A stretch of DNA of 64,000 nucleotides from a virus. Below, piece after piece: positions 2,260 through 60,739 of the stretch (positions are counted from its first letter, which is position 1; every line of letters starts with the position of its first letter). The translations under genes were made by a program, and so were the position numbers. The notes below the pieces were generated by a model, which saw only the letters and a list, made by a program, of their open reading frames with translations, was not told the DNA's origin and ran no database searches. The stretch is taken from the IMG/VR virus record IMGVR_UViG_3300035662_000007, positions 1-64,000 of that record. One strand, 5' to 3'.

Positions 2260-3042
2260 ATGCAAAAACTAAATAAACTGGAAGCAATTCCACTCCATGA
2301 AATTGCCAACCAGGTCGACCCTAAACTGCTGGAGGTTTGGGTGGCCGAACAACAACTCCAGACCAAAGAGGAGTGGTTGTGGCCTCAGATTCTAGCACAC
2401 TACAATCGCTGGAATCTTATCCTAGACCCTCAAGGTAGGGTAGACATTCCTAAAACACTCCGTATCAACATTTGCAGCGATTGGGAGCTGGGCTTGTGGA
2501 GGCTAGTTAATCGAGTAAATCGCAGCCACCTGATCAAACGTCAAAGCCATCCCAGCTCTGTCAACTGGAGTAGTCTAGCTCCTACTATCCTACTAGCACA
2601 ACGTCGAGATCGGGGAGTTCCATACCAGAGCTGGCCGCTGGAAGGCTTGGATCGTGTGATTAGTAAAGAACTTTACGAATGTTTGCTGTGGGCTAGCCAT
2701 AACCCACACTTCCGCGATTTAGGGTCACAAGAGCTCATCGAAATTCGCCAGCAGGGGTTGCTGTACAAAACTGGACAAAAACAAGGTCAGTATAAAAGTG
2801 CGCTTACAACTTGGCAGCTTACTGGACTACCCACTCCATGGCGTGAGATTCCTCGTCTGGCGATTACAATGTTGACACAAATCTGGGTTTGCCATCCACA
2901 GCTACGAACACAATACTTAATCCTAGACCCCTGGCAGTGGGATCGTATGCCACCGCCGCTCCTACCCGACGAGATTTTTTCGGTTGTGGCGACTGAGGGT
3001 CCAAAACACGTTAAAGTCGCAGATATGCCATGGGACGACTAA
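2260..3042 (+). CDS. Unknown protein, 260 aa
   Basis: The ATG at 2260 has no clear ribosome binding site (AAAACTCG precedes it) and follows a structured leader about 230 nt long, so translation may be controlled. The product is soluble, rich in tryptophan and leucine (WLWPQILAHYNRWN, DWELGLWRLVNRVNR), with no recognisable catalytic motif, signal peptide or membrane span. It is followed 4 nt later by an HTH protein gene, so the two are probably co-expressed. Not recognised. Confidence 0.7.
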   Translation: MQKLNKLEAIPLHEIANQVDPKLLEVWVAEQQLQTKEEWLWPQILAHYNRWNLILDPQGRVDIPKTLRINICSDWELGLWRLVNRVNRSHLIKRQSHPSSVNWSSLAPTILLAQRRDRGVPYQSWPLEGLDRVISKELYECLLWASHNPHFRDLGSQELIEIRQQGLLYKTGQKQGQYKSALTTWQLTGLPTPWREIPRLAITMLTQIWVCHPQLRTQYLILDPWQWDRMPPPLLPDEIFSVVATEGPKHVKVADMPWDD

Positions 3043-3046
3043 CAAC

Positions 3047-3358
3047 ATGAAATATACTAAAGAAATCACTGACCGTCTAGTGCAAAGATACCGAGAAGGT
3101 GTGCCAGTAGAGGAGCTTGCCCAAGAGCTCCAGGTGCCAACTCGTAGCATAATTGCTAAGCTCAGCTCGCTAGAGGTGTACCAGAAAAAACAGTACCTAA
3201 ACAAACGCGGTGAGGTCCCGGTTAAGAAGTCAGAATACATCGAACGAATCGCCCTACTGCTCAACATGAACCTTGAACTGCTCGAAAGTCTGGAAAAGGT
3301 CAATAAAGGTGTGCTTGAGGTCATAGAACGGGAATTAAGTAGGAATAACCGACCCTAA
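3047..3358 (+). CDS. Small HTH-type protein, paralog 1 of 4, 103 aa
   Basis: The N-terminal half (residues 1-45) reads as a helix-turn-helix: a basic helix (DRLVQRYREG), a VEELAQELQV turn and a recognition-type helix TRSIIAKLSS, followed by the family tag VYQKKQYLNKRGE. Three minus-strand genes in the window (3999, 4978, 9095) share this architecture and the RS-I/V-xAKLS core. The fold resembles the homeodomain-like DNA-binding unit of GcrA-type regulators; that is inference. This is the most divergent copy and the only one on the plus strand. A terminator follows at 3378. Confidence 0.75.
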   Translation: MKYTKEITDRLVQRYREGVPVEELAQELQVPTRSIIAKLSSLEVYQKKQYLNKRGEVPVKKSEYIERIALLLNMNLELLESLEKVNKGVLEVIERELSRNNRP

Positions 3359-3474: not shown

Positions 3475-3504
3475 TTGACACATATAGCTTTAGCACTGTA
3501 TAAT
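3475..3504 (+). promoter_or_regulatory. Promoter of the intergenic family, divergent copy
   Basis: TTGACA, 18-bp spacer, TATAAT, then TTGGCGCC as in the five other family members. It lacks the A/T-rich palindrome over the spacer. The only structure downstream is the hairpin at 3531-3554. Confidence 0.7.
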
Positions 3505-3998: not shown

Positions 3999-4307
3999 TC
4001 AGGCTTTGAGCACTTCGACCAGGCGGGTCAAAACATCCTGATTTGCTTTTTCCAGCGATTCAAACTGTTCACTATTCCGATCACACACCTTAGCAATGCG
4101 CTCGACCAGCTCAGCTTTGGTAACCCGGGCCGCCTGTGTAGTCCGGGTCTTCGCTACGTACACACCCTCGCGCGAAAGTTTAGCAACCACACTACGCACA
4201 CTTTTACCAACCTGCTCAGCCAGTTGCTCAACACTTACACCTTGCTGATACTTCTGGACCAGTTCCTGAACTTGTTCAGGGGTATAGTTCATTACTTTGT
4301 CAGTCAT
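3999..4307 (-). CDS. Small HTH-type protein, paralog 2 of 4, 102 aa
   Basis: Start chosen at 4307 because GGAGAA precedes that ATG and the promoter at 4336-4364 excludes longer versions. The N-terminal half holds the family pattern YTPEQVQELVQKYQQG, VEQLAEQVGKS and VRSVVAKLSREGVY (about residues 7-50); the C-terminal part (LEKANQDVLTRLVEVL) looks helical and may mediate dimerisation. Its closest relatives are the genes at 4978 and 9095. Probable DNA-binding protein; the target is unknown. Confidence 0.75.
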   Translation of the reverse strand: MTDKVMNYTPEQVQELVQKYQQGVSVEQLAEQVGKSVRSVVAKLSREGVYVAKTRTTQAARVTKAELVERIAKVCDRNSEQFESLEKANQDVLTRLVEVLKA

Positions 4308-4335
4308 TTGGGTTCTCCAATCAATCAATATAAAT

Positions 4336-4364
4336 ATTATACAGGGATTAGGCTTGGGAATCAA
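4336..4364 (-). promoter_or_regulatory. Minus-strand sigma-70-type promoter
   Basis: TTGATT (complement of 4359-4364), 17-bp spacer, TATAAT (complement of 4336-4341), 29 bp upstream of the start at 4307. Confidence 0.7.
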
Positions 4365-4977: not shown

Positions 4978-5304
4978 TTAGATAGGCTTGGAATTGGCAA
5001 GCGCATCAAAAATCGCCTTCAGCGCGCGCTTGTTCGCTTTGGTAAGCGAGTCGGTATCAGCTTCGCTCAGGTTCAGAATTCGACCGATAGCATCCGCAGT
5101 CATATCCTTTTTCTGAACGGGTTCGCCGGTTTTCGTGGTATAAACCTTTTTCTGGTAAACACCCTCGCGCGACAATTTTGCCACAATCGAACGAACCGAT
5201 TTGCCGAGATTTTCGGCAATGCTTTCCACGGTAACACCCGCGAGATAATCCGCGACAACCTGCGCGGTTTGCTCGGGAGTGTAGTTCACGGCTTTTTCTG
5301 CCAT
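4978..5304 (-). CDS. Small HTH-type protein, paralog 3 of 4, 108 aa
   Basis: Start set at 5304 (MAEKAVNYT), preceded by AAGGGTAGCAAA; the upstream in-frame ATG has no binding site. Residues 7-55 carry YTPEQ, VESIAENLGKS, VRSIVAKLSREGVY and QKKVYTTKTGE, nearly the same as the gene at 9095. The C-terminal half (LTKANKRALKAIFDAL) is a predicted helix. Single-gene transcript with its own terminator. Probable DNA-binding protein, possibly acting on the palindromic promoters of this region (inference). Confidence 0.8.
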   Translation of the reverse strand: MAEKAVNYTPEQTAQVVADYLAGVTVESIAENLGKSVRSIVAKLSREGVYQKKVYTTKTGEPVQKKDMTADAIGRILNLSEADTDSLTKANKRALKAIFDALANSKPI

Positions 5305-5453
5305 TTTGCTACCCTTCACAGTTTTGGCAAGCGCCCCATGCACCCGCCACAGAAAAGATTCTACACGAAAATCTAGCCCTGCGCCCTGGGCAAGCGATTG
5401 TATTTTTTAATCGACTAGGCGACCCCGATAGAAAAATATTTTGTAGAAAACCC

Positions 5454-5483
5454 TTGACACGGGCAAATTTTATATGATAAAAT
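5454..5483 (+). promoter_or_regulatory. Intergenic family promoter, unit 2
   Basis: TTGACA, 18-bp spacer, TAAAAT with CAAATTTTA-N5-TAAAATTTG over the spacer and -10. Predicted start near 5490 at GCCAGC, which can pair with GCCTGGC at about 5546. Confidence 0.75.
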
Positions 5484-5498
5484 TTGGCGCCAGCAAGG

Positions 5499-5542
5499 TG
5501 TGATGTTATAACATCACACGGGTGTGATGTTATAACATCACA
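5499..5542. repeat. Two tandem 20-bp palindromes
   Basis: TGTGATGTTATAACATCACA occurs at 5499-5518 and 5523-5542 with CGGG between. A variant lies at 9864-9883 and halves of it flank the palindrome at 7085-7142. Confidence 0.85.
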
Positions 5543-5557
5543 TAGGCCTGGCAAAGT

Positions 5558-5577
5558 AAAACCCCTTTCGGGGTTTT
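5558..5577. terminator. Bidirectional terminator
   Basis: AAAACCCC-TTTC-GGGGTTTT; T-rich on the plus side (TTTTATTTATTT) and usable for the minus gene ending at 5580. Confidence 0.85.
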
Positions 5578-5579
5578 AT

Positions 5580-5924
5580 TTATTTATTGAATCCTGCAAT
5601 ATTAACCTGATAATGTCGCCGGAAATATTTTCGCCACCGATCAAAATAACCTGATGGAGAATGATTTACTGGAAGATTATTTTCAGATTGCCAAGCGTGA
5701 ATATATTCATGCACAATGGTTGCAAATAATTCCATGGGATTCCAGATTTCAGCGCGTGAAACTTGGATTAGGTGATAATCGAATTCATCTTCCCATAATC
5801 CTACACAATAAACACCGCCGAGATTTATAGTCTTGCAAACCTGTAAAACTACGGGTTTGCGGATTTGAATTTCGGTTTCCGCAATTCGCTGGAATAGTTC
5901 AATGTCTGATTTGTGAAACTTCAT
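5580..5924 (-). CDS. HExxH zinc metalloprotease-like protein (SprT-type), 114 aa
   Basis: Contains TIVHEYIHAW with the zincin signature H72-E73-x-x-H76. The size and the Tyr/Trp-rich tail (YFDRWRKYFRRH), which may provide the third zinc ligand, fit the short SprT/WLM-like enzymes seen in phages. Last gene of a three-gene minus operon (6876 to 5580) and overlaps the PQ-loop gene by an ATGA. A second HExxH protein lies at 7764. Substrate unknown; a role in trimming DNA-bound proteins is an inference from Spartan/SprT. Confidence 0.7.
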   Translation of the reverse strand: MKFHKSDIELFQRIAETEIQIRKPVVLQVCKTINLGGVYCVGLWEDEFDYHLIQVSRAEIWNPMELFATIVHEYIHAWQSENNLPVNHSPSGYFDRWRKYFRRHYQVNIAGFNK

Positions 5925-6175
5925 TTTCTGGTATCCTCAATTTTGAAAAAAATCATTACCGCAAGGCAAAGCGAATTAAATAGATAATTGCCCAGCAAAA
6001 TCCAGTCTTGTTTAGGCCAAATATAAATAATGGTGAATATCTCGCCAATTGCCCAAAGGATTAAAAACATCCACGACAAACCCTCAGCGGATCGTTTACG
6101 GTAGCATTCGACAACCTGTGGAATTGCACAGGTTGCAAATGCAACCGATCCGATAATACCGATTGCATCCGACAT
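5921..6175 (-). CDS. PQ-loop / SemiSWEET-like membrane protein, 84 aa
   Basis: Three predicted membrane helices in about 84 residues (6-24, 32-52, 56-77). The family motif CAIPQVVECYRKRSAEGLS sits at the end of helix 1, with Pro-Gln in the expected place, followed by WMFLILWAIGEI. This matches bacterial SemiSWEETs (3-TM units that dimerise to carry sugars). It lies between an exonuclease and a metalloprotease in one operon. A phage copy could change sugar flux across the inner membrane, but it may also be a repurposed membrane anchor. Confidence 0.75.
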   Translation of the reverse strand: MSDAIGIIGSVAFATCAIPQVVECYRKRSAEGLSWMFLILWAIGEIFTIIYIWPKQDWILLGNYLFNSLCLAVMIFFKIEDTRK

Positions 6176-6177
6176 AA

Positions 6178-6876
6178 TTAAATTGCCTTAAAGTGATTTT
6201 TGACCTGAAAATCGTACCATGTATGCGCTTTAAGATTATCGCGCCATTGTTTGCGCTTGATAATACTGGTCAGGATGGGCAATTCAAAATCGCGCGCATC
6301 CTCGATAGCGGTATGGGGTTCAATCTTAAATTCACCCTGAATAAATCCGCATACTGCCTCAGCGGTAGTCTTAAAAGACATATTACCCTTATCAGTCGGC
6401 GGATTAAATAAGTGATTCTCTAAACAGAATTGACGATATTTGCGAGTTCCGCAAATATTACCGATTGCCGCTTGCCACAGGCAAAACCGATCCGTGAATA
6501 GGTCAAGATCAATCGCAGTATTGCGACATTTACCCTCATCAAAGTTTAGATTATATGCCGTGAGAATAGGATTATATTTGCCTACCGCAAGCGCAAGCCA
6601 GCGATTAATTGCCGCAACTGATGCAAGCATACGCGCGCCAGAATCTAGCATGGCGACATATTGTGCTTCACGTTTACGCAAACCCGCAAAACCCCAAATA
6701 TCTGATTTGTTTTTGTCGTGGAATAGAGTCTTATCCCCATATTCACCGCGAACCAGAACAGCACATTGTGTGAAAATCTTACCCTCACGATCAACAATTA
6801 CCGCGCCAAAATCGGCCACGGTATCATTAATCGTTGTCTCAGTGTCAACGATACAAAAAAACTGCTTGCGAGCCAT
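6178..6876 (-). CDS. DEDDh-type 3'-5' exonuclease (DnaQ-like), 232 aa
   Basis: Exo I motif FFCIVDTETT near the N-terminus, Exo II ILTAYNLNFDEGK in the centre and Exo III with the catalytic histidine in HTAIEDARDFELPIL near the C-terminus: the DEDDh set of proofreading and RNase T-like exonucleases. Two ATG codons (6879, 6876) follow AAAGGG; 6876 has better spacing. First gene of the operon, downstream of the promoter at 6933-6961. Probably acts on DNA or RNA 3' ends. Confidence 0.85.
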   Translation of the reverse strand: MARKQFFCIVDTETTINDTVADFGAVIVDREGKIFTQCAVLVRGEYGDKTLFHDKNKSDIWGFAGLRKREAQYVAMLDSGARMLASVAAINRWLALAVGKYNPILTAYNLNFDEGKCRNTAIDLDLFTDRFCLWQAAIGNICGTRKYRQFCLENHLFNPPTDKGNMSFKTTAEAVCGFIQGEFKIEPHTAIEDARDFELPILTSIIKRKQWRDNLKAHTWYDFQVKNHFKAI

Positions 6877-6932
6877 CATCTACCCTTTACCGGAAAGCGC
6901 CGGAAATCGCGCGCGGCAATTGCCACACCCAG

Positions 6933-7291: not shown

Positions 7292-7764
7292 TAGTGTCCC
7301 TGCTTGCTTGGAATGTAAACTCCACGGATACCGAAACGGTCGCAGACTGCTTTAAGGTAGTCCACATTATCCTCATAAAAAACAACATCGTCAGTCTGGA
7401 AGTTGACAAGGTTGAAAAACTTTGCTAGTCCACCGATTTTGAGGGTTCGACCTGATTGCGTATCGCCCTGTTTACGCGAAACGATATAATCGGGTTCGCC
7501 TAGAGTGTCGCGGATAAATTCTCGATCCGGTTCGCCTAGTACGCGCGCAGTCGCAATTATGGTATACGTTTCAGGATCGTCAAGGTCTTGCCAGTATTCT
7601 TCGACCAGCGGTAAGAGTGAATCGTCAAGCGCGCGGTATTCATTCTCGCGCCAGTAGTCTAGGTCGATACGCTCGCCACGCTCATCGATGACGGTCCGGT
7701 AACGATGCAGCGAGCATACAATGGTTCCGTCCATGTCGTAAATTCTAACGCGCTTGATTGCCAT
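7291..7764 (-). CDS. HAD-superfamily phosphatase/hydrolase, 157 aa
   Basis: Motif I YDMDGT with the nucleophile D10 and acid D12, motif II in YTIIATAR, a lysine region (SRKQGDTQSGRTLKIGG) and motif IV FYEDN. This is the compact HAD layout of phage nucleotidases and 3'-phosphatases such as the PNK phosphatase domain. It follows the SprT-like gene in an ATGA-type overlap. The substrate (nucleotide, polynucleotide end or small sugar phosphate) cannot be told from the sequence. Confidence 0.8.
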   Translation of the reverse strand: MAIKRVRIYDMDGTIVCSLHRYRTVIDERGERIDLDYWRENEYRALDDSLLPLVEEYWQDLDDPETYTIIATARVLGEPDREFIRDTLGEPDYIVSRKQGDTQSGRTLKIGGLAKFFNLVNFQTDDVVFYEDNVDYLKAVCDRFGIRGVYIPSKQGH

Positions 7765-8105
7765 TATTTTAATTCCATTGTGTGAAAGGGTTTCGGTTCA
7801 TACCCTAGAGTATACATGATTTCCTGCCATGGTTTGCCGTGATGCCGCTTATATTTTCGCCATCCGTTCAGGCAGTAGTCGATATAATGTGCAGTCTCAT
7901 GGGTGAGAATTTGCCCCATCATTTCACGCCGGTATTCGCGCAAGTATGGGCCGCTGAGGGTAATCTCGCCAGTCTCCACAATGCACAAGCCAGCGGTACG
8001 GGTTAGCCGTTCCGAGATTTTGAAGGTTGGCGGGTTGTGCAATTCCAGTTCCGGCCAAATCCGGCAAGCATCTTGCCAAGGTTTTAAGAGCGGGTTTGAG
8101 TTCAT
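7764..8105 (-). CDS. SprT-like HExxH metalloprotease, 113 aa
   Basis: LTHETAHYIDY gives H69-E70-x-x-H73, and a later KRHHGKPWQ can supply the third zinc ligand, as in SprT/Spartan-type proteases. It is first in the operon with the HAD phosphatase. The ATG at 8105 lies only 7 nt after a TACTAT -10 (promoter 8113-8141), so the message is predicted to be leaderless or nearly so; no ribosome binding site is present. Distinct in sequence from the HExxH protein at 5580. Confidence 0.75.
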   Translation of the reverse strand: MNSNPLLKPWQDACRIWPELELHNPPTFKISERLTRTAGLCIVETGEITLSGPYLREYRREMMGQILTHETAHYIDYCLNGWRKYKRHHGKPWQEIMYTLGYEPKPFHTMELK

Positions 8106-9094: not shown

Positions 9095-9415
9095 CTACGC
9101 CTTGCTGCGGATAAACTCCGCAATCGCAGCAAGCGCGCGCTTGTTTGCTTTGGCAAGTGAATCGGTATCCCCTTCTGAAAGGTTCAGTGCCTTGCCGATC
9201 ATATCAGCGTGCTCATCCTTTTTGACGGGAGCCTCGCCCGTTTTGGTTGTGTATTCCTTTTTCTGGTATACACCCTCGCGGGACAGTTTAGCAACAATCG
9301 ACCGAACCGATTTGCCCATTGCCTTGGCAATATCCTCAACCTGTACCCCAGCCTTGTAATCGGCCACAAGTTTAAGGGTTTGTTCCGAAGTGTAGTTCGC
9401 AGTCTTTTCAGCCAT
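9095..9415 (-). CDS. Small HTH-type protein, paralog 4 of 4, 106 aa
   Basis: ATG at 9415 follows AAGGGGA. It shares with the 4978 gene the stretches VRSIVAKLSREGVYQKK, TTKTGE and LNLSE-DTDSL-KANKRAL, so the two are recent duplicates. Predicted HTH in residues 7-50, helical C-terminus. Third gene of an operon with the two small genes upstream (9764 and 9604). Expected to bind DNA; the target is unknown. Confidence 0.8.
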   Translation of the reverse strand: MAEKTANYTSEQTLKLVADYKAGVQVEDIAKAMGKSVRSIVAKLSREGVYQKKEYTTKTGEAPVKKDEHADMIGKALNLSEGDTDSLAKANKRALAAIAEFIRSKA

Positions 9416-10011: not shown

Positions 10012-10479
10012 ATGAACCAACTACCCACCGACACCATCAACATAAGCCCCGAATTATTGGAGGTGGCTAATCTCTACCTAGAACACCAAAACACCCAGGA
10101 GGTAGCCACTGTCCTCCAGCTAGAACCCCACGACGTTGCCCAGATCCTAAAGCGTCCAGATGTGAAATCCTACATTAACCAGGTATTCTTCGACTTAGGC
10201 TTCAACAACCGGTTTCGTATGCGCCGTGCCATGGACGCACTTATTAGTCAAAAGTTTCAGGAGCTGGAGGAGTCGCAAACGGGCAGCACCAAAGACATAT
10301 CGGAACTACTTGCACTCTCACACAAAATGAGCATGGAATTGCTAGACCGTGAGATTCAGCTGGAGAAATTACGGCAAGGTGGGCCTAAAAATCAGGTTAA
10401 TGTGCAGATCAACGAGGGCGGTGACGGTACACGATATGGCCAGCTAATCCAGAAATTGCTGGGAGACAAACTTGCTTAA
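10012..10479 (+). CDS. Terminase small subunit, 155 aa
   Basis: Lies immediately upstream of, and overlaps, the large terminase. The N-terminal third (LLEVANLYLEHQNTQEVATV-type segment, then QILKRPDVKSYINQVF) has the helical DNA-binding pattern of phage TerS, and the C-terminal part is a polar helix (MSMELLDREIQLEKLRQGG) as in oligomerising TerS. It recognises phage DNA and stimulates packaging by TerL. ATG at 10012 follows AGGA. Assigned mainly from position, size and helix pattern. Confidence 0.75.
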   Translation: MNQLPTDTINISPELLEVANLYLEHQNTQEVATVLQLEPHDVAQILKRPDVKSYINQVFFDLGFNNRFRMRRAMDALISQKFQELEESQTGSTKDISELLALSHKMSMELLDREIQLEKLRQGGPKNQVNVQINEGGDGTRYGQLIQKLLGDKLA

Positions 10480-11785
10480 GGTGTCGAGACCCGATGTAGA
10501 GTGGGACGGCATTCAAGAATTCGACCCACATACCCGTTTTATTAAACTACCAATCGAAAACTATCTTAAGCTCATCGGAGCTTGGGATCAGCTAAACCGC
10601 GCGCAGCTGGCACTAATCAATGCGGTCAACAATCCACAATACCGTTTTGTTGTAGCCGCACTAGCACGCCGTCTAGGCAAAACCTATATTGCAAATATCA
10701 TTGCGCAACTAGTAAGCCTAGTGCCAAACTGCAATGTCCTAGTGATCAGTCCCAACTATAATCTGTCCAGCATTAGTTTTGAACTGCAACGCAGGTTTAT
10801 CAAACACTTTGAGTTGGAGGTGGAGCGGGATAACCTAAAGGACCGGGTAATTGAGCTGAGCAACGGGTCTACAGTCAGGATGGGTTCGCTGTCCACAGTA
10901 GATAGCACAGTTGGTAGATCGTACCAGCTTATACTCTTTGACGAGGCTGCCTTAGGCGACGGCGGTGAGGAGGCATTTAATATCCAGCTGCGTCCGACCC
11001 TAGACCGGGTAGATGCTAAAGCTATATTTATCTCCACACCTCGTGGCAAGCAAAACTGGTTCTCCCGATTCTGGGATCGTGGGTTCTCGGCAGAATTTCC
11101 GGAGTGGTGTTCACTCTGGGCAGATTATGAAGAAAATCCCAGGATGAGCCCTAAAGATATTGAAGAAGCCCGCAGGTCTATGAGCAAGCAGGAGTTTGAG
11201 CAGGAATACCTTGCGTCATTCACTACATTTGAGGGTCAGATTTATGAGTTACGGGATGATAACATCGTGCCTTGGGACCCCAAACTGCAGCTGGATCAGA
11301 GTACTCAGTTTATTGCGGGCTGCGACCCGGGATACCGAGACCCCACAGCCTTCCTAGTAGTAGCCTACCTGCCGGATCCACGTGATGCAGGCGAGGATAG
11401 GTTCTGGGTTATACGTGAGTACGAGGAGGCCGAGCAGACTACCCAGTATCATGCCCAACAGATTAAAAACATGGCAGACGAGTTCCAGATTGAACTAATC
11501 TTTATAGATAGTGCGGCAGCACAGTTTGCTCAAGACCTTGCCTACCAGTATGATATTCCGACTGTGCGTGCTCGTAAAGATGTACTTCCCGGCATCGCGT
11601 ACGTGCAAACCCTAGTCGCACAGGGTAAGCTATGGGTAGATCCGGGCTGTACCAAGACCGTAGAGGCACTCAACCAGTACAAGTGGGATGATCGCGAGGG
11701 GCTTACACGTGAGAAGCCTAAGCATGATCGGTACTCTCACCTTATGGATGCGCTCCGCTACTGCTTATACTCGTTTACTAGATAA
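10472..11785 (+). CDS. Terminase large subunit, 437 aa
   Basis: Packaging ATPase/nuclease. Walker A is the deviant ALARRLGKT (about residues 63-71) typical of terminases, Walker B is LILFDEA (about 153-158). The RNase H-like nuclease carries acidic residues in AGCDPGYRDP, FIDSAAAQ and HDRYSHLMDALRY. The start is a TTG at 10472, six bases after GGGAG and overlapping terS; GTG at 10481 is an alternative. Full length for the family, so it appears intact. Confidence 0.93.
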   Translation: MLKVSRPDVEWDGIQEFDPHTRFIKLPIENYLKLIGAWDQLNRAQLALINAVNNPQYRFVVAALARRLGKTYIANIIAQLVSLVPNCNVLVISPNYNLSSISFELQRRFIKHFELEVERDNLKDRVIELSNGSTVRMGSLSTVDSTVGRSYQLILFDEAALGDGGEEAFNIQLRPTLDRVDAKAIFISTPRGKQNWFSRFWDRGFSAEFPEWCSLWADYEENPRMSPKDIEEARRSMSKQEFEQEYLASFTTFEGQIYELRDDNIVPWDPKLQLDQSTQFIAGCDPGYRDPTAFLVVAYLPDPRDAGEDRFWVIREYEEAEQTTQYHAQQIKNMADEFQIELIFIDSAAAQFAQDLAYQYDIPTVRARKDVLPGIAYVQTLVAQGKLWVDPGCTKTVEALNQYKWDDREGLTREKPKHDRYSHLMDALRYCLYSFTR

Positions 11786-56422: not shown

Positions 56423-58384
56423 TTACTTTACTGGGCATGCGCCGGTTAAACATTCGTCATCTAAGATTGCGTCAAAACTATTGGCACTATCTATATTGAC
56501 GGCTTTTAGGTCTTGAACATATGTGCGAAACGTATATTCGTCGACAACTTCTTGTGGTAGGTATAGGTAGCCAAGATCTTTGGCTGTTTTTGTAGGATCA
56601 CTTCTATAAATAAATGAAACTCCAACATAGCAGTCCCAATTATTCATTAACCAATCTACAATTTGTGGAACTTCATGCGGCTCGTAGCTAATAGTTACTG
56701 AGGTATTTTGCTGAGTCCACGAAGTTTGAATTAGTTTATATCGTTCAAGTTGGTCAATAGCAGTTTCTAGGTTAACTTCTTTGCCATCTTGTTTGTGGAA
56801 TGGAACATCCGACCACTCTACTGGAAAGGTTACTAGAACACCGGTATCGTCTGTGGGATGATTAAATACTCGGTAGTTTGCTTCACGCAATTTATCTACA
56901 ACTGGATCGTACTTGCTAAACTGTACATTGTTGAAAATGTACTTGCCTAGAGGCTTATGAACTCCCTCAGTGGTATCCATAATTTTCGATAACGTGCCAC
57001 TAGGCTTAACACAAGTAATATTCTTGGGACGTGGTAAGCCTAGCTCATCAGCCATACCAATTGCTGCACTAGTAGCTGTACGTTTTAGGTATTCATAATC
57101 GTAACCAGTCATGTCTGGACGCTTAGCAATACCAGTTAGGCCTACACCACACAGTCGCAAGAAGTAATTGTTGAGATGCCATGCTTCTTGAAGGATACCG
57201 TCTTTGAGGTTAACACAGGTTTGACGGTAATTAGCTCGGGCGGCAAGCCGTATAGCTTCGTGAAGTCCTGCGGTATTTCCCTTAAACTTTCCAATATCTG
57301 TTTCTGTAAGATTACAGAATGATTTGTTTCCGAGTAGAATCTCAACACAAGGATTTGCTCCCTTATACCAAGGTGCACGACGACGTGCTTCTTGTGCATT
57401 AATAAACCCTGGCTCACTTCCGCCAGCTTCTTGCATAATTGCAAAGATTTCGCTTAGTTGCTCGTAGGTAGGCTTTTCATTAAACACTAGACTATTGTTA
57501 CTTTGCTGACGATGTGCATTGCCATGCAACCACCAGTCTTTTTTAGCTACTGCAAATTCTTGCCACTCCGGTTGGCCGTAGTCGAAAAGCGCAATCTCAG
57601 CACTTCGGCGACTAGACAGAATGGTACCAAGCCAATTAACAATATCCATGATATCCATTCTGGTGAGTAGTGAATCTGCCCGTCCATTAAGGATACGGGC
57701 GATAGCAACATAAGCAGTACTGATAGCCGAGTCACCCGAACTAATCCATCCATAGCCTTTTAACCTTTCACCAGCAGGACGCAGTTGACTGAAGTCTAGA
57801 ACAAGAGTATCAGCAGGATATTTTCCTGCCATTAGTTTACCAATGCTTTTAGCCCATGCTTCTGCACTATCGCCAACCTGAATACGCCAAGTTTTTGTTT
57901 GCGGGTCCCAAGTTTCTACATTATGTTCACAGCCACCTTTTTCAGTACGCTGTGATCGTACCACTTCGATATTTTGAATAGGTTTTGAGAATCCATTTAG
58001 TGTGCCTATAATAGGCTTAAATCCTACGCCGCAACCTTGTAAAAGTAGCCATAGTACATCTACTACGTCATATACAGTTTCAACCTCTGTAAAGCTACAA
58101 TTAAACTGTGATGCTTCACGATTTTTAGCTACTTGTGTGCCGCCTAGCCATAAGGTACGACCGCTCATAGAAACTTTACGCTCAAGCATAAGTTGTTCTA
58201 GGCGATTTAGTTCTGCGTACTCATTGGGAAGCAGCTGCCTACCGGCAGCACGTTCCCACAACCATGCCTGATGTGAGATTACTCGGCTAACAGTATCTTG
58301 CCAAGTTTCAAATTGTTTGCCATCATCACTGATGGGTCTGTTATAAGTTCTGCGTGTAATTACTTGTGCTCGTGTGCTTGTCAT
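56423..58384 (-). CDS. nrdJ: Class II (B12-dependent) ribonucleoside-triphosphate reductase, 653 aa
   Basis: Monomeric adenosylcobalamin-dependent reductase. Key features: FNCSF with C96, the radical/active-site segment NPCVEILL (N344, C346, E348), SFCNLTE with C357, and the C-terminal thiol pair C645/C650 in DDECLTGACPVK that is re-reduced by a thioredoxin or glutaredoxin; a glutaredoxin gene lies at the window edge. It makes dNTPs without oxygen dependence. Slightly shorter than the 739-residue Lactobacillus enzyme. ATG follows GAGGAG. Confidence 0.93.
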   Translation of the reverse strand: MTSTRAQVITRRTYNRPISDDGKQFETWQDTVSRVISHQAWLWERAAGRQLLPNEYAELNRLEQLMLERKVSMSGRTLWLGGTQVAKNREASQFNCSFTEVETVYDVVDVLWLLLQGCGVGFKPIIGTLNGFSKPIQNIEVVRSQRTEKGGCEHNVETWDPQTKTWRIQVGDSAEAWAKSIGKLMAGKYPADTLVLDFSQLRPAGERLKGYGWISSGDSAISTAYVAIARILNGRADSLLTRMDIMDIVNWLGTILSSRRSAEIALFDYGQPEWQEFAVAKKDWWLHGNAHRQQSNNSLVFNEKPTYEQLSEIFAIMQEAGGSEPGFINAQEARRRAPWYKGANPCVEILLGNKSFCNLTETDIGKFKGNTAGLHEAIRLAARANYRQTCVNLKDGILQEAWHLNNYFLRLCGVGLTGIAKRPDMTGYDYEYLKRTATSAAIGMADELGLPRPKNITCVKPSGTLSKIMDTTEGVHKPLGKYIFNNVQFSKYDPVVDKLREANYRVFNHPTDDTGVLVTFPVEWSDVPFHKQDGKEVNLETAIDQLERYKLIQTSWTQQNTSVTISYEPHEVPQIVDWLMNNWDCYVGVSFIYRSDPTKTAKDLGYLYLPQEVVDEYTFRTYVQDLKAVNIDSANSFDAILDDECLTGACPVK

Positions 58385-59720: not shown

Positions 59721-60731
59721 TTAGTGCTTAATCTGACTCCAAACACGGGTTCTAATTTGAGCTTGTAGTGTCTCTGGAAGGTGTACATAATCAAGTTCTT
59801 CACTCATTTTAGCACCGTGTTTAAATGCCCAATCAAAAAACTTAATAGCTTCTTGGCTGGATTTTTTATCTTGTGGATCTTTGTACATGATAATAAAACT
59901 AGCAGTACTAATTGGCCAAGTATTCTTACCCGGTTGATCAACAATACTTAGACCCATACCGGGTACACTAAACCAATCTGCACCAGCCGCAGCGGCAGCA
60001 AAAGTAGTATCATCAGGATTAACAAATATACCGTCCTTGTTTTGTAGTTTCATGTAGGTCATGTTATTTTTCTTAACATAGGCATACTCTACATATCCCA
60101 CAGAACCACGTACCCTACGCACATTAGCAGCCACGCCTTCATTACCTTTGCCACCTACACTGCTACTAGCAGGCCATTTTACTGCTGCGCCACGTCCTAC
60201 ACGACTCATCCAGTCTGGGCTTACTGTGCTCAAGTAATCAGTAAAATTAAAAGTAGTTCCCGATCCATCAGCTCTGTGTACTACGGTAATAGCCATATCT
60301 GGTAATTTTTTGGCTGGATTAAGTTGCTGAAGTTTAGGGTCATTCCACTTTGTAATCGTACCCATGAAAACTTCAGCCAGTACGGGTCCGGTAATAACAA
60401 GCTCACCGGGTTGGAATCCGTCAAGATTAATAATAGGAACTGTTCCACCTATAATTGCAGGAAATTGAACTTGTCCCAGTTTATCTAGGTCTTCACCCTT
60501 AACCGGAGCATCTGTAGCTCCAAATGTTACTGTTTTATTATTAATTTGACGAATACCGCCAGAACTGCCAATACTTTGATAATTTAATCCAATTTTAGTC
60601 TCTTTTTGATAGGCTTCAGCCCATTTAGCGTATATTGGATAAGGAAAAGTAGCTCCTGCTGCTGTAATTGTTTGAGCTGCAACTGAAATAGAGGCTGTAG
60701 CAAGAATAATTCCAACTAATTTATTAATCAT
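59721..60731 (-). CDS. pstS: Periplasmic phosphate-binding protein PstS, 336 aa
   Basis: Start at 60731, six bases after AGGA. Signal peptide INKLVGIILATASISVAAQ, then the family N-terminus TITAAGATFPYPIYAKWAEA and phosphate-contact segments SIGSSGGIRQI, VTFGATDAP and RADGSGTTFNF. Length and motifs match intact bacterial PstS. A phage copy would raise phosphate capture by the host's Pst transporter during infection, as known from marine cyanophages. No Pho box was identified. Confidence 0.93.
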   Translation of the reverse strand: MINKLVGIILATASISVAAQTITAAGATFPYPIYAKWAEAYQKETKIGLNYQSIGSSGGIRQINNKTVTFGATDAPVKGEDLDKLGQVQFPAIIGGTVPIINLDGFQPGELVITGPVLAEVFMGTITKWNDPKLQQLNPAKKLPDMAITVVHRADGSGTTFNFTDYLSTVSPDWMSRVGRGAAVKWPASSSVGGKGNEGVAANVRRVRGSVGYVEYAYVKKNNMTYMKLQNKDGIFVNPDDTTFAAAAAGADWFSVPGMGLSIVDQPGKNTWPISTASFIIMYKDPQDKKSSQEAIKFFDWAFKHGAKMSEELDYVHLPETLQAQIRTRVWSQIKH

Positions 60732-60739
60732 AGACAATC

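Follow-up and report, generated by a model that had tools for sequence, protein, structure and literature searches.

A phage-encoded single-repeat PQ-loop protein with a putatively re-built binding site in a T5-like lineage

The DNA analyzed here (the window) is a 64,000-nucleotide stretch, positions 1 to 64,000, of IMG/VR virus record IMGVR_UViG_3300035662_000007, which comprises 97,551 bases. The first ~480 bases of the record are repeated at its end, and a near-identical sister contig spans the junction; hence, the carrier genome is probably complete. The carrier is T5-like in that it encodes a T5-type terminase and a homolog of dmp, a dispensable T5 pre-early gene located in the terminal repeats (PMC8108384). 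Elsewhere, it encodes a PstS phosphate-binding protein (59721-60737, minus strand; NCBIfam equivalog, 389 bits vs. 339) and, near this gene, an adenosylcobalamin-dependent ribonucleotide reductase (56423-58384). The genes and the signal relevant to this study are listed below.

5580-5924, minus strand: SprT-like putative metalloprotease, 114 aa, the following operon gene (HExxH at residues 72-76; weak Pfam match)
5921-6175, minus strand: P0001, 84-aa PQ-loop half-transporter gene (ORF, PF04193, AlphaFold2 model, dN/dS)
6178-6879, minus strand: DEDDh-type exonuclease by motif, 233 aa, the preceding operon gene (D12-x-E14, D114, H189-D194)
6185-6189, minus strand: Shine-Dalgarno-like AAGGC (read 6189 to 6185), 5' of the P0001 start codon
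7291-7764, minus strand: HAD phosphatase, homolog of T5-type deoxynucleoside-5'-monophosphatase (dmp) (29% identity, E 3e-15 to PR1 dmp)
7764-8105, minus strand: second SprT-like metalloprotease (PF10263, 1.1e-16)
10472-11785, plus strand: terminase large subunit (47-50% identical to T5-like phages)

The P0001 ORF starts with ATG and fills 5921-6175 exactly, on the minus strand only (6175 to 5921); the plus strand is interrupted by stop codons. The coordinates and the 84-residue length given in the original prediction were therefore exact, and the strand is minus. The upstream gene stops 2 nt short of the P0001 start, and the P0001 stop codon and the ATG that starts the next gene overlap in ATGA (4 nt). 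The three genes, in the order exonuclease-PQ-SprT, form a tight operon with P0001 in the middle. A chance ORF was ruled out by the PF04193 match, the conserved gene order, and strong purifying selection (pairwise dN/dS of the PQ gene in the close clade, 0.03-0.11). The P0001 ORF is real.

The exonuclease had no Pfam or NCBIfam match and is assigned by motifs only; its residues 114, 189, and 194 are near-invariant in 26 sequences. The HAD phosphatase was related to PR1 dmp by pairwise comparison. Its HAD catalytic residues are conserved, and its isolate-phage relatives include annotated T5-type dmp proteins. SPRTN relatives remove DNA-protein crosslinks. The HAD phosphatase, the second SprT-like metalloprotease, and small genes including HTH proteins lie 5' of the operon trio on the same strand, and the terminase genes occupy the opposite strand from ~10 kb. 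The PQ gene forms part of an accessory cassette of early type and has a gene for a dmp-like dNMP phosphatase close by.

This region encodes four small HTH proteins that resemble one another (GcrA/sigma region 4-like), at 2984-3358 (plus strand), 3999-4364, 4978-5343, and 9095-9415 (minus strand); this family recurs in ~33 related loci. The plus strand of the window also carries six near-consensus sigma-70 promoter-like sites, at 3475, 4840, 5454, 7041, 8209, and 8993. Each consists of TTGACA, an 18-nt spacer, and TAAAAT/TATAAT, and has GGCGCC and a perfect hairpin of 11-28 bp directly after it (z -4.7 to -12.3 for the five hairpins folded). All six point in the direction opposing the minus-strand cassette genes. 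Related phages have comparable units, with different hairpin sequences, on the strand opposite the cassette (e.g. L041, L047, L092, L105, and L114). A search against Rfam returned no family at its cut-off for the units, which may represent phage hairpin RNAs of one dispersed family.

The best Pfam model for P0001 was PF04193 (PQ-loop repeat), with an E value of 3.3e-13 and 49.6 bits, above the 22-bit Pfam gathering cut-off; this model was matched by all 41 members of the 41-sequence family alignment. MtN3_slv (PF03083; 14.5 bits, E 0.036) and LAB_N (PF07578; 18.5 bits) scored under their Pfam gathering cut-offs of 23.7 and 26.7 bits, respectively. The NCBIfam SemiSWEET model NF037968 matched P0001 with an E value of 4e-7 and 30 bits, under its cut-off of 80, and was matched at E<=0.01 by 39/41 family members. 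The NCBIfam lysosomal cystine transporter model gave a weak match (20 bits), and PHROG 25992 (phrog_25992, unknown function) also matches P0001. The best PDB sequence matches were SemiSWEETs.

The AlphaFold2 model of P0001, built with 41 sequences, has a mean pLDDT of 88. TM1 is broken at the PQ motif and is followed by two more helices, giving three in total and a single repeat. The model superposes on the SemiSWEET crystal structure 5uhs with TM scores of 0.90/0.93 and an rmsd of 1.0 Å. The 16 best PDB fold matches were all SemiSWEET/SWEET proteins, with a best Foldseek E value of just 5e-3. P0001 is thus a phage-encoded half-transporter of the SWEET/PQ-loop clan.

The original prediction had described a phage-encoded SemiSWEET/PQ-loop protein with three helices and a PQ motif. 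The phage origin stands, given the IMG/VR virus record and the T5-type terminase, and so do the three helices, the PQ motif (residues 19-20), and, by structure prediction, the SemiSWEET protomer fold. The SemiSWEET identity was upheld in part. Fold and best PDB sequence matches agree with it, but family membership does not, since NF037968 reaches 30 of 80 bits and the best Pfam model is PQ-loop, not MtN3_slv. The HMM comparison was likewise divided, with PF04193 above its cut-off and the SemiSWEET model below, PQ-loop and SWEET being related families. A better match elsewhere or loss of the substrate-site residues was to count against a SemiSWEET, and half of this was observed.

In EcSemiSWEET, Trp50 and Asn66 line the pocket, Tyr53-Arg57-Asp59 form the outer gate, and the PQ motif acts as the hinge (PMC4309421). 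The corresponding and the invariant features of P0001 are as follows.

5975-5989, minus strand: TM3 motif N63-Y64-x-x-N67, invariant in 47/47 distinct relatives
6005-6025, minus strand: Tyr51-Lys55-Asp57, by alignment the equivalent of the EcSemiSWEET extracellular gate Tyr53-Arg57-Asp59 (PMC4309421)
6032-6034, minus strand: Thr48, by alignment at the SemiSWEET pocket Trp position (Ec Trp50)
6041-6055, minus strand: TM2 stretch W41 to E45, with Trp41 and Glu45 invariant in 47/47 distinct relatives
6116-6121, minus strand: PQ motif P19-Q20 (hinge), invariant in 47/47 distinct relatives; hinge role from PMC4309421

G9, A14, C16, P19, Q20, W41, E45, N63, Y64, and N67 are invariant in 47/47 distinct relatives, viral and cellular. 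P0001 retains PQ, G32, and the gate residues. Among the 34 viral members, the gate is conserved at Y51 (33/34), position 55 (K or R, 24/34), and D57 (29/34). Because the PQ hinge and the outer gate are kept, SemiSWEET-like alternating access is still likely. The pocket is different. Position 48 is T, M, A, L, or Y across the 34 viral members, and the pocket Trp is lost family-wide. The pocket Asn (Ec Asn66) pairs with N63 if a one-residue gap is allowed and with Y64 if not; it is at best register-shifted. The acidic Glu45, common to all 47 relatives, is absent at that position in the three solved SemiSWEETs aligned. On a helical wheel of TM2, W41 and E45 fall within ~60 degrees of position 48. 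The P0001 pocket may be a re-built binding site with an acid, as judged from sequence. Because this pocket departs from the one in sugar SemiSWEETs (Thr in place of Trp; invariant Glu45, Trp41, and Asn67), a plain sugar is unlikely to be the substrate.

The PQ gene was found in 66 of the 78 HAD-anchored loci, and several of the remaining loci are contigs cut off near HAD; the gene is near-universal in this T5-like lineage. In ~30 viral contigs, it is accompanied by HAD, exonuclease, SprT-like, and HTH genes, in an order that varies. A search of 5-9.5 kb against phage records for distant DNA similarity gave no match, and a Legionella plasmid match was too weak to be retained. Outside the lineage, the PQ gene lies near a 5'-deoxynucleotidase (NT5C) and DHFR in L051, near ThyX in L055 and L056, and next to a BT1-family transporter in L049; in other distant phages, it sits by lysis or structural genes. 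ThyX was near the PQ gene in 2/5 ThyX-bearing records outside the lineage (~0.9 expected) and NT5C in 2/3 NT5C-bearing records (~0.3 expected), an enrichment that is weak once counted against whole records. The bacterial relatives, mostly from Nitrospirota, had no neighboring partner with a clear functional link.

Some relatives have other architectures. In L017, L178, L179, L180, L181, and L182, several of which are very large phages, the PQ-loop domain follows an N-terminal extension of ~120-180 residues (204-259 aa in total). Paired PQ-loop paralogs occur at L042:2405-2662 and 4998-5246, L048:5001-5249 and 5476-5634, and L134:7600-7854 and 10316-10561; such closely spaced paralogs could form heterodimers.

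Several roles can be considered for P0001. As a true SemiSWEET, it would act as a homodimer that facilitates sugar passage and diverts host sugars in infection. The shared fold, the best PDB sequence matches, and the NF037968 match at 4e-7 are consistent with this, and the W50A mutant of EcSemiSWEET still moved sucrose (PMC4309421), so loss of the Trp alone is compatible with a sugar. However, NF037968 scores 30 bits where 80 are required, the pocket Trp is lost family-wide, the invariant TM2 acid E45 is not present in the aligned SemiSWEETs, and the immediate cassette neighbors include no sugar-metabolism gene. A SemiSWEET proper is improbable, and the sugar substrate of the original prediction is not supported, given Thr48 at the Trp position and the invariant Glu45/Trp41/Asn67 set in place of the known pocket; P0001 is a variant PQ-loop half-transporter, not a demonstrated SemiSWEET. 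A heteromeric transporter was suggested by A3, a second small 3-TM protein of 67-73 aa with weak PnuC/DUF6552 similarity (e.g. L011:4372-4572). A3 homologs occur in 58/78 HAD-anchored loci, in 54/78 at a distance of a few kb at most from the PQ gene, and in 10/10 of the larger viral records that were tested beyond the window's clade. Single-member profile searches with A3 matched DUF6552 (1e-6), NMN_transporter (5e-5), and the PnuC-like phrog_1880 (8e-4). P0001 might accordingly be one half of a two-component MPC- or PnuC-like heteromer with A3, perhaps for nicotinamide riboside or nucleosides. Attractive as it is, the PQ-A3 heterodimer was rejected and is a long shot for P0001: neither the window's record nor the two sister records tested contain A3, the A3 model is un-SWEET-like, with no significant SemiSWEET match, and the PQ and A3 family profiles align over just 12 columns.

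Small phage membrane proteins often act on the membrane or on host transporters. P0001 might be of this kind and transport nothing in infection, serving instead, for example, in superinfection exclusion or host-carrier inhibition. Its neighbors resemble host-takeover genes, and some distant relatives adjoin lysis genes. This role is nevertheless unlikely, because the residues of the hinge, the gate, and the putative pocket are conserved across very distant phages and bacteria, and a simple membrane plug would need none of them.

Our preferred reading is that P0001 is a single-repeat PQ-loop transporter, which we consider probable; the gene, its predicted fold and conservation, the operon, and the pocket changes come from computation, and homodimerization, transport, and an inner-membrane location are inferred. 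The three-helix protein would most likely homodimerize in the host inner membrane, and the dimer would transport a small polar solute by alternating access of the SemiSWEET kind, with the PQ motif as the hinge and Tyr-Lys-Asp as the outer gate. The operon content (exonuclease, SprT-like protease, and dNMP phosphatase) points to host DNA disposal. According to the older T5 literature, cells infected by T5 excrete host DNA in the form of free bases and nucleosides, with dephosphorylation carried out by dmp. In the mechanism proposed for P0001, the exonuclease, the SprT-like protease, and the dNMP phosphatase would take host DNA apart, and P0001 would then carry the neutral products; its likeliest job would be the exit of nucleosides or bases from the degraded, dephosphorylated host DNA. 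Nucleosides or bases as the substrate, moved outward, are a tentative guess, kept so low because the ThyX and NT5C counts are weak and other phages place the PQ gene elsewhere. It is doubtful that the T5-like phages of this lineage encode an inner-membrane nucleoside/base exporter that works with the exonuclease, the SprT-like protease, and the dNMP phosphatase as a machine for dismantling and expelling host DNA. Against host DNA disposal count the motif-only exonuclease, the lack of the PQ gene in both T5-like isolates checked (PG07 and PR1), and the lack of a match in the record to the T5-type A1 DNA-transfer protein (query, PG07 A1), which in T5 is required to break down host DNA (PMC8541194).

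Databases already contain named viral PQ-loop proteins, and in the viral structure library, proteins of the P0001 fold are labeled COG4095, PQ loop, or SemiSWEET. A0A6J7WPM7 (COG4095, uncultured Caudovirales phage) has the same predicted fold as P0001 and is 40% identical over the structural match; A0A8S5P1N9 ('SemiSWEET, PQLC', Myoviridae ctrf010) and giant-virus PQ-loop proteins share this fold as well. The literature searched contained no functional study of these proteins. In the open-access literature, we found no paper on a phage PQ-loop/SemiSWEET gene as such and no description of the T5-like operon context.

P0001 resembles bacterial SemiSWEETs (4rng, 4qnc/5uhs, 4x5m, and 9kax; MtN3/saliva) in its three helices, PQ hinge, outer gate Tyr-(Arg/Lys)-Asp, and predicted fold (TM up to 0.90/0.93). 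It differs from them in having Thr48 for the pocket Trp, a pocket Asn that may be shifted, and the invariant Glu45/Trp41/Asn67; identity over the fold matches is 14-26%, and the score is far under the NCBIfam SemiSWEET cut-off. With the PQ-loop family PF04193 (cystinosin and PQLC-type transporters), P0001 shares the PQ motif, but those proteins have two repeats and P0001 has one. The dmp-like HAD phosphatase, encoded near a T5-type terminase, is a feature shared with the T5 pre-early module (A1, A2, and dmp). Unlike that module, the carrier has no A1 match, has an exonuclease, SprT-like proteases, and a PQ-loop protein instead, and places the cassette opposite to the terminase. In a T5-like lineage that has been well sampled, a minimal SWEET/PQ-loop half-transporter with a putatively re-built binding site is standard equipment, and it is also found in very different phages. 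If products of host-DNA breakdown are exported by P0001, T5-like phages would encode a means of their own by which they could dispose of nucleosides and bases, and PQ-loop transporters would gain a new substrate class.
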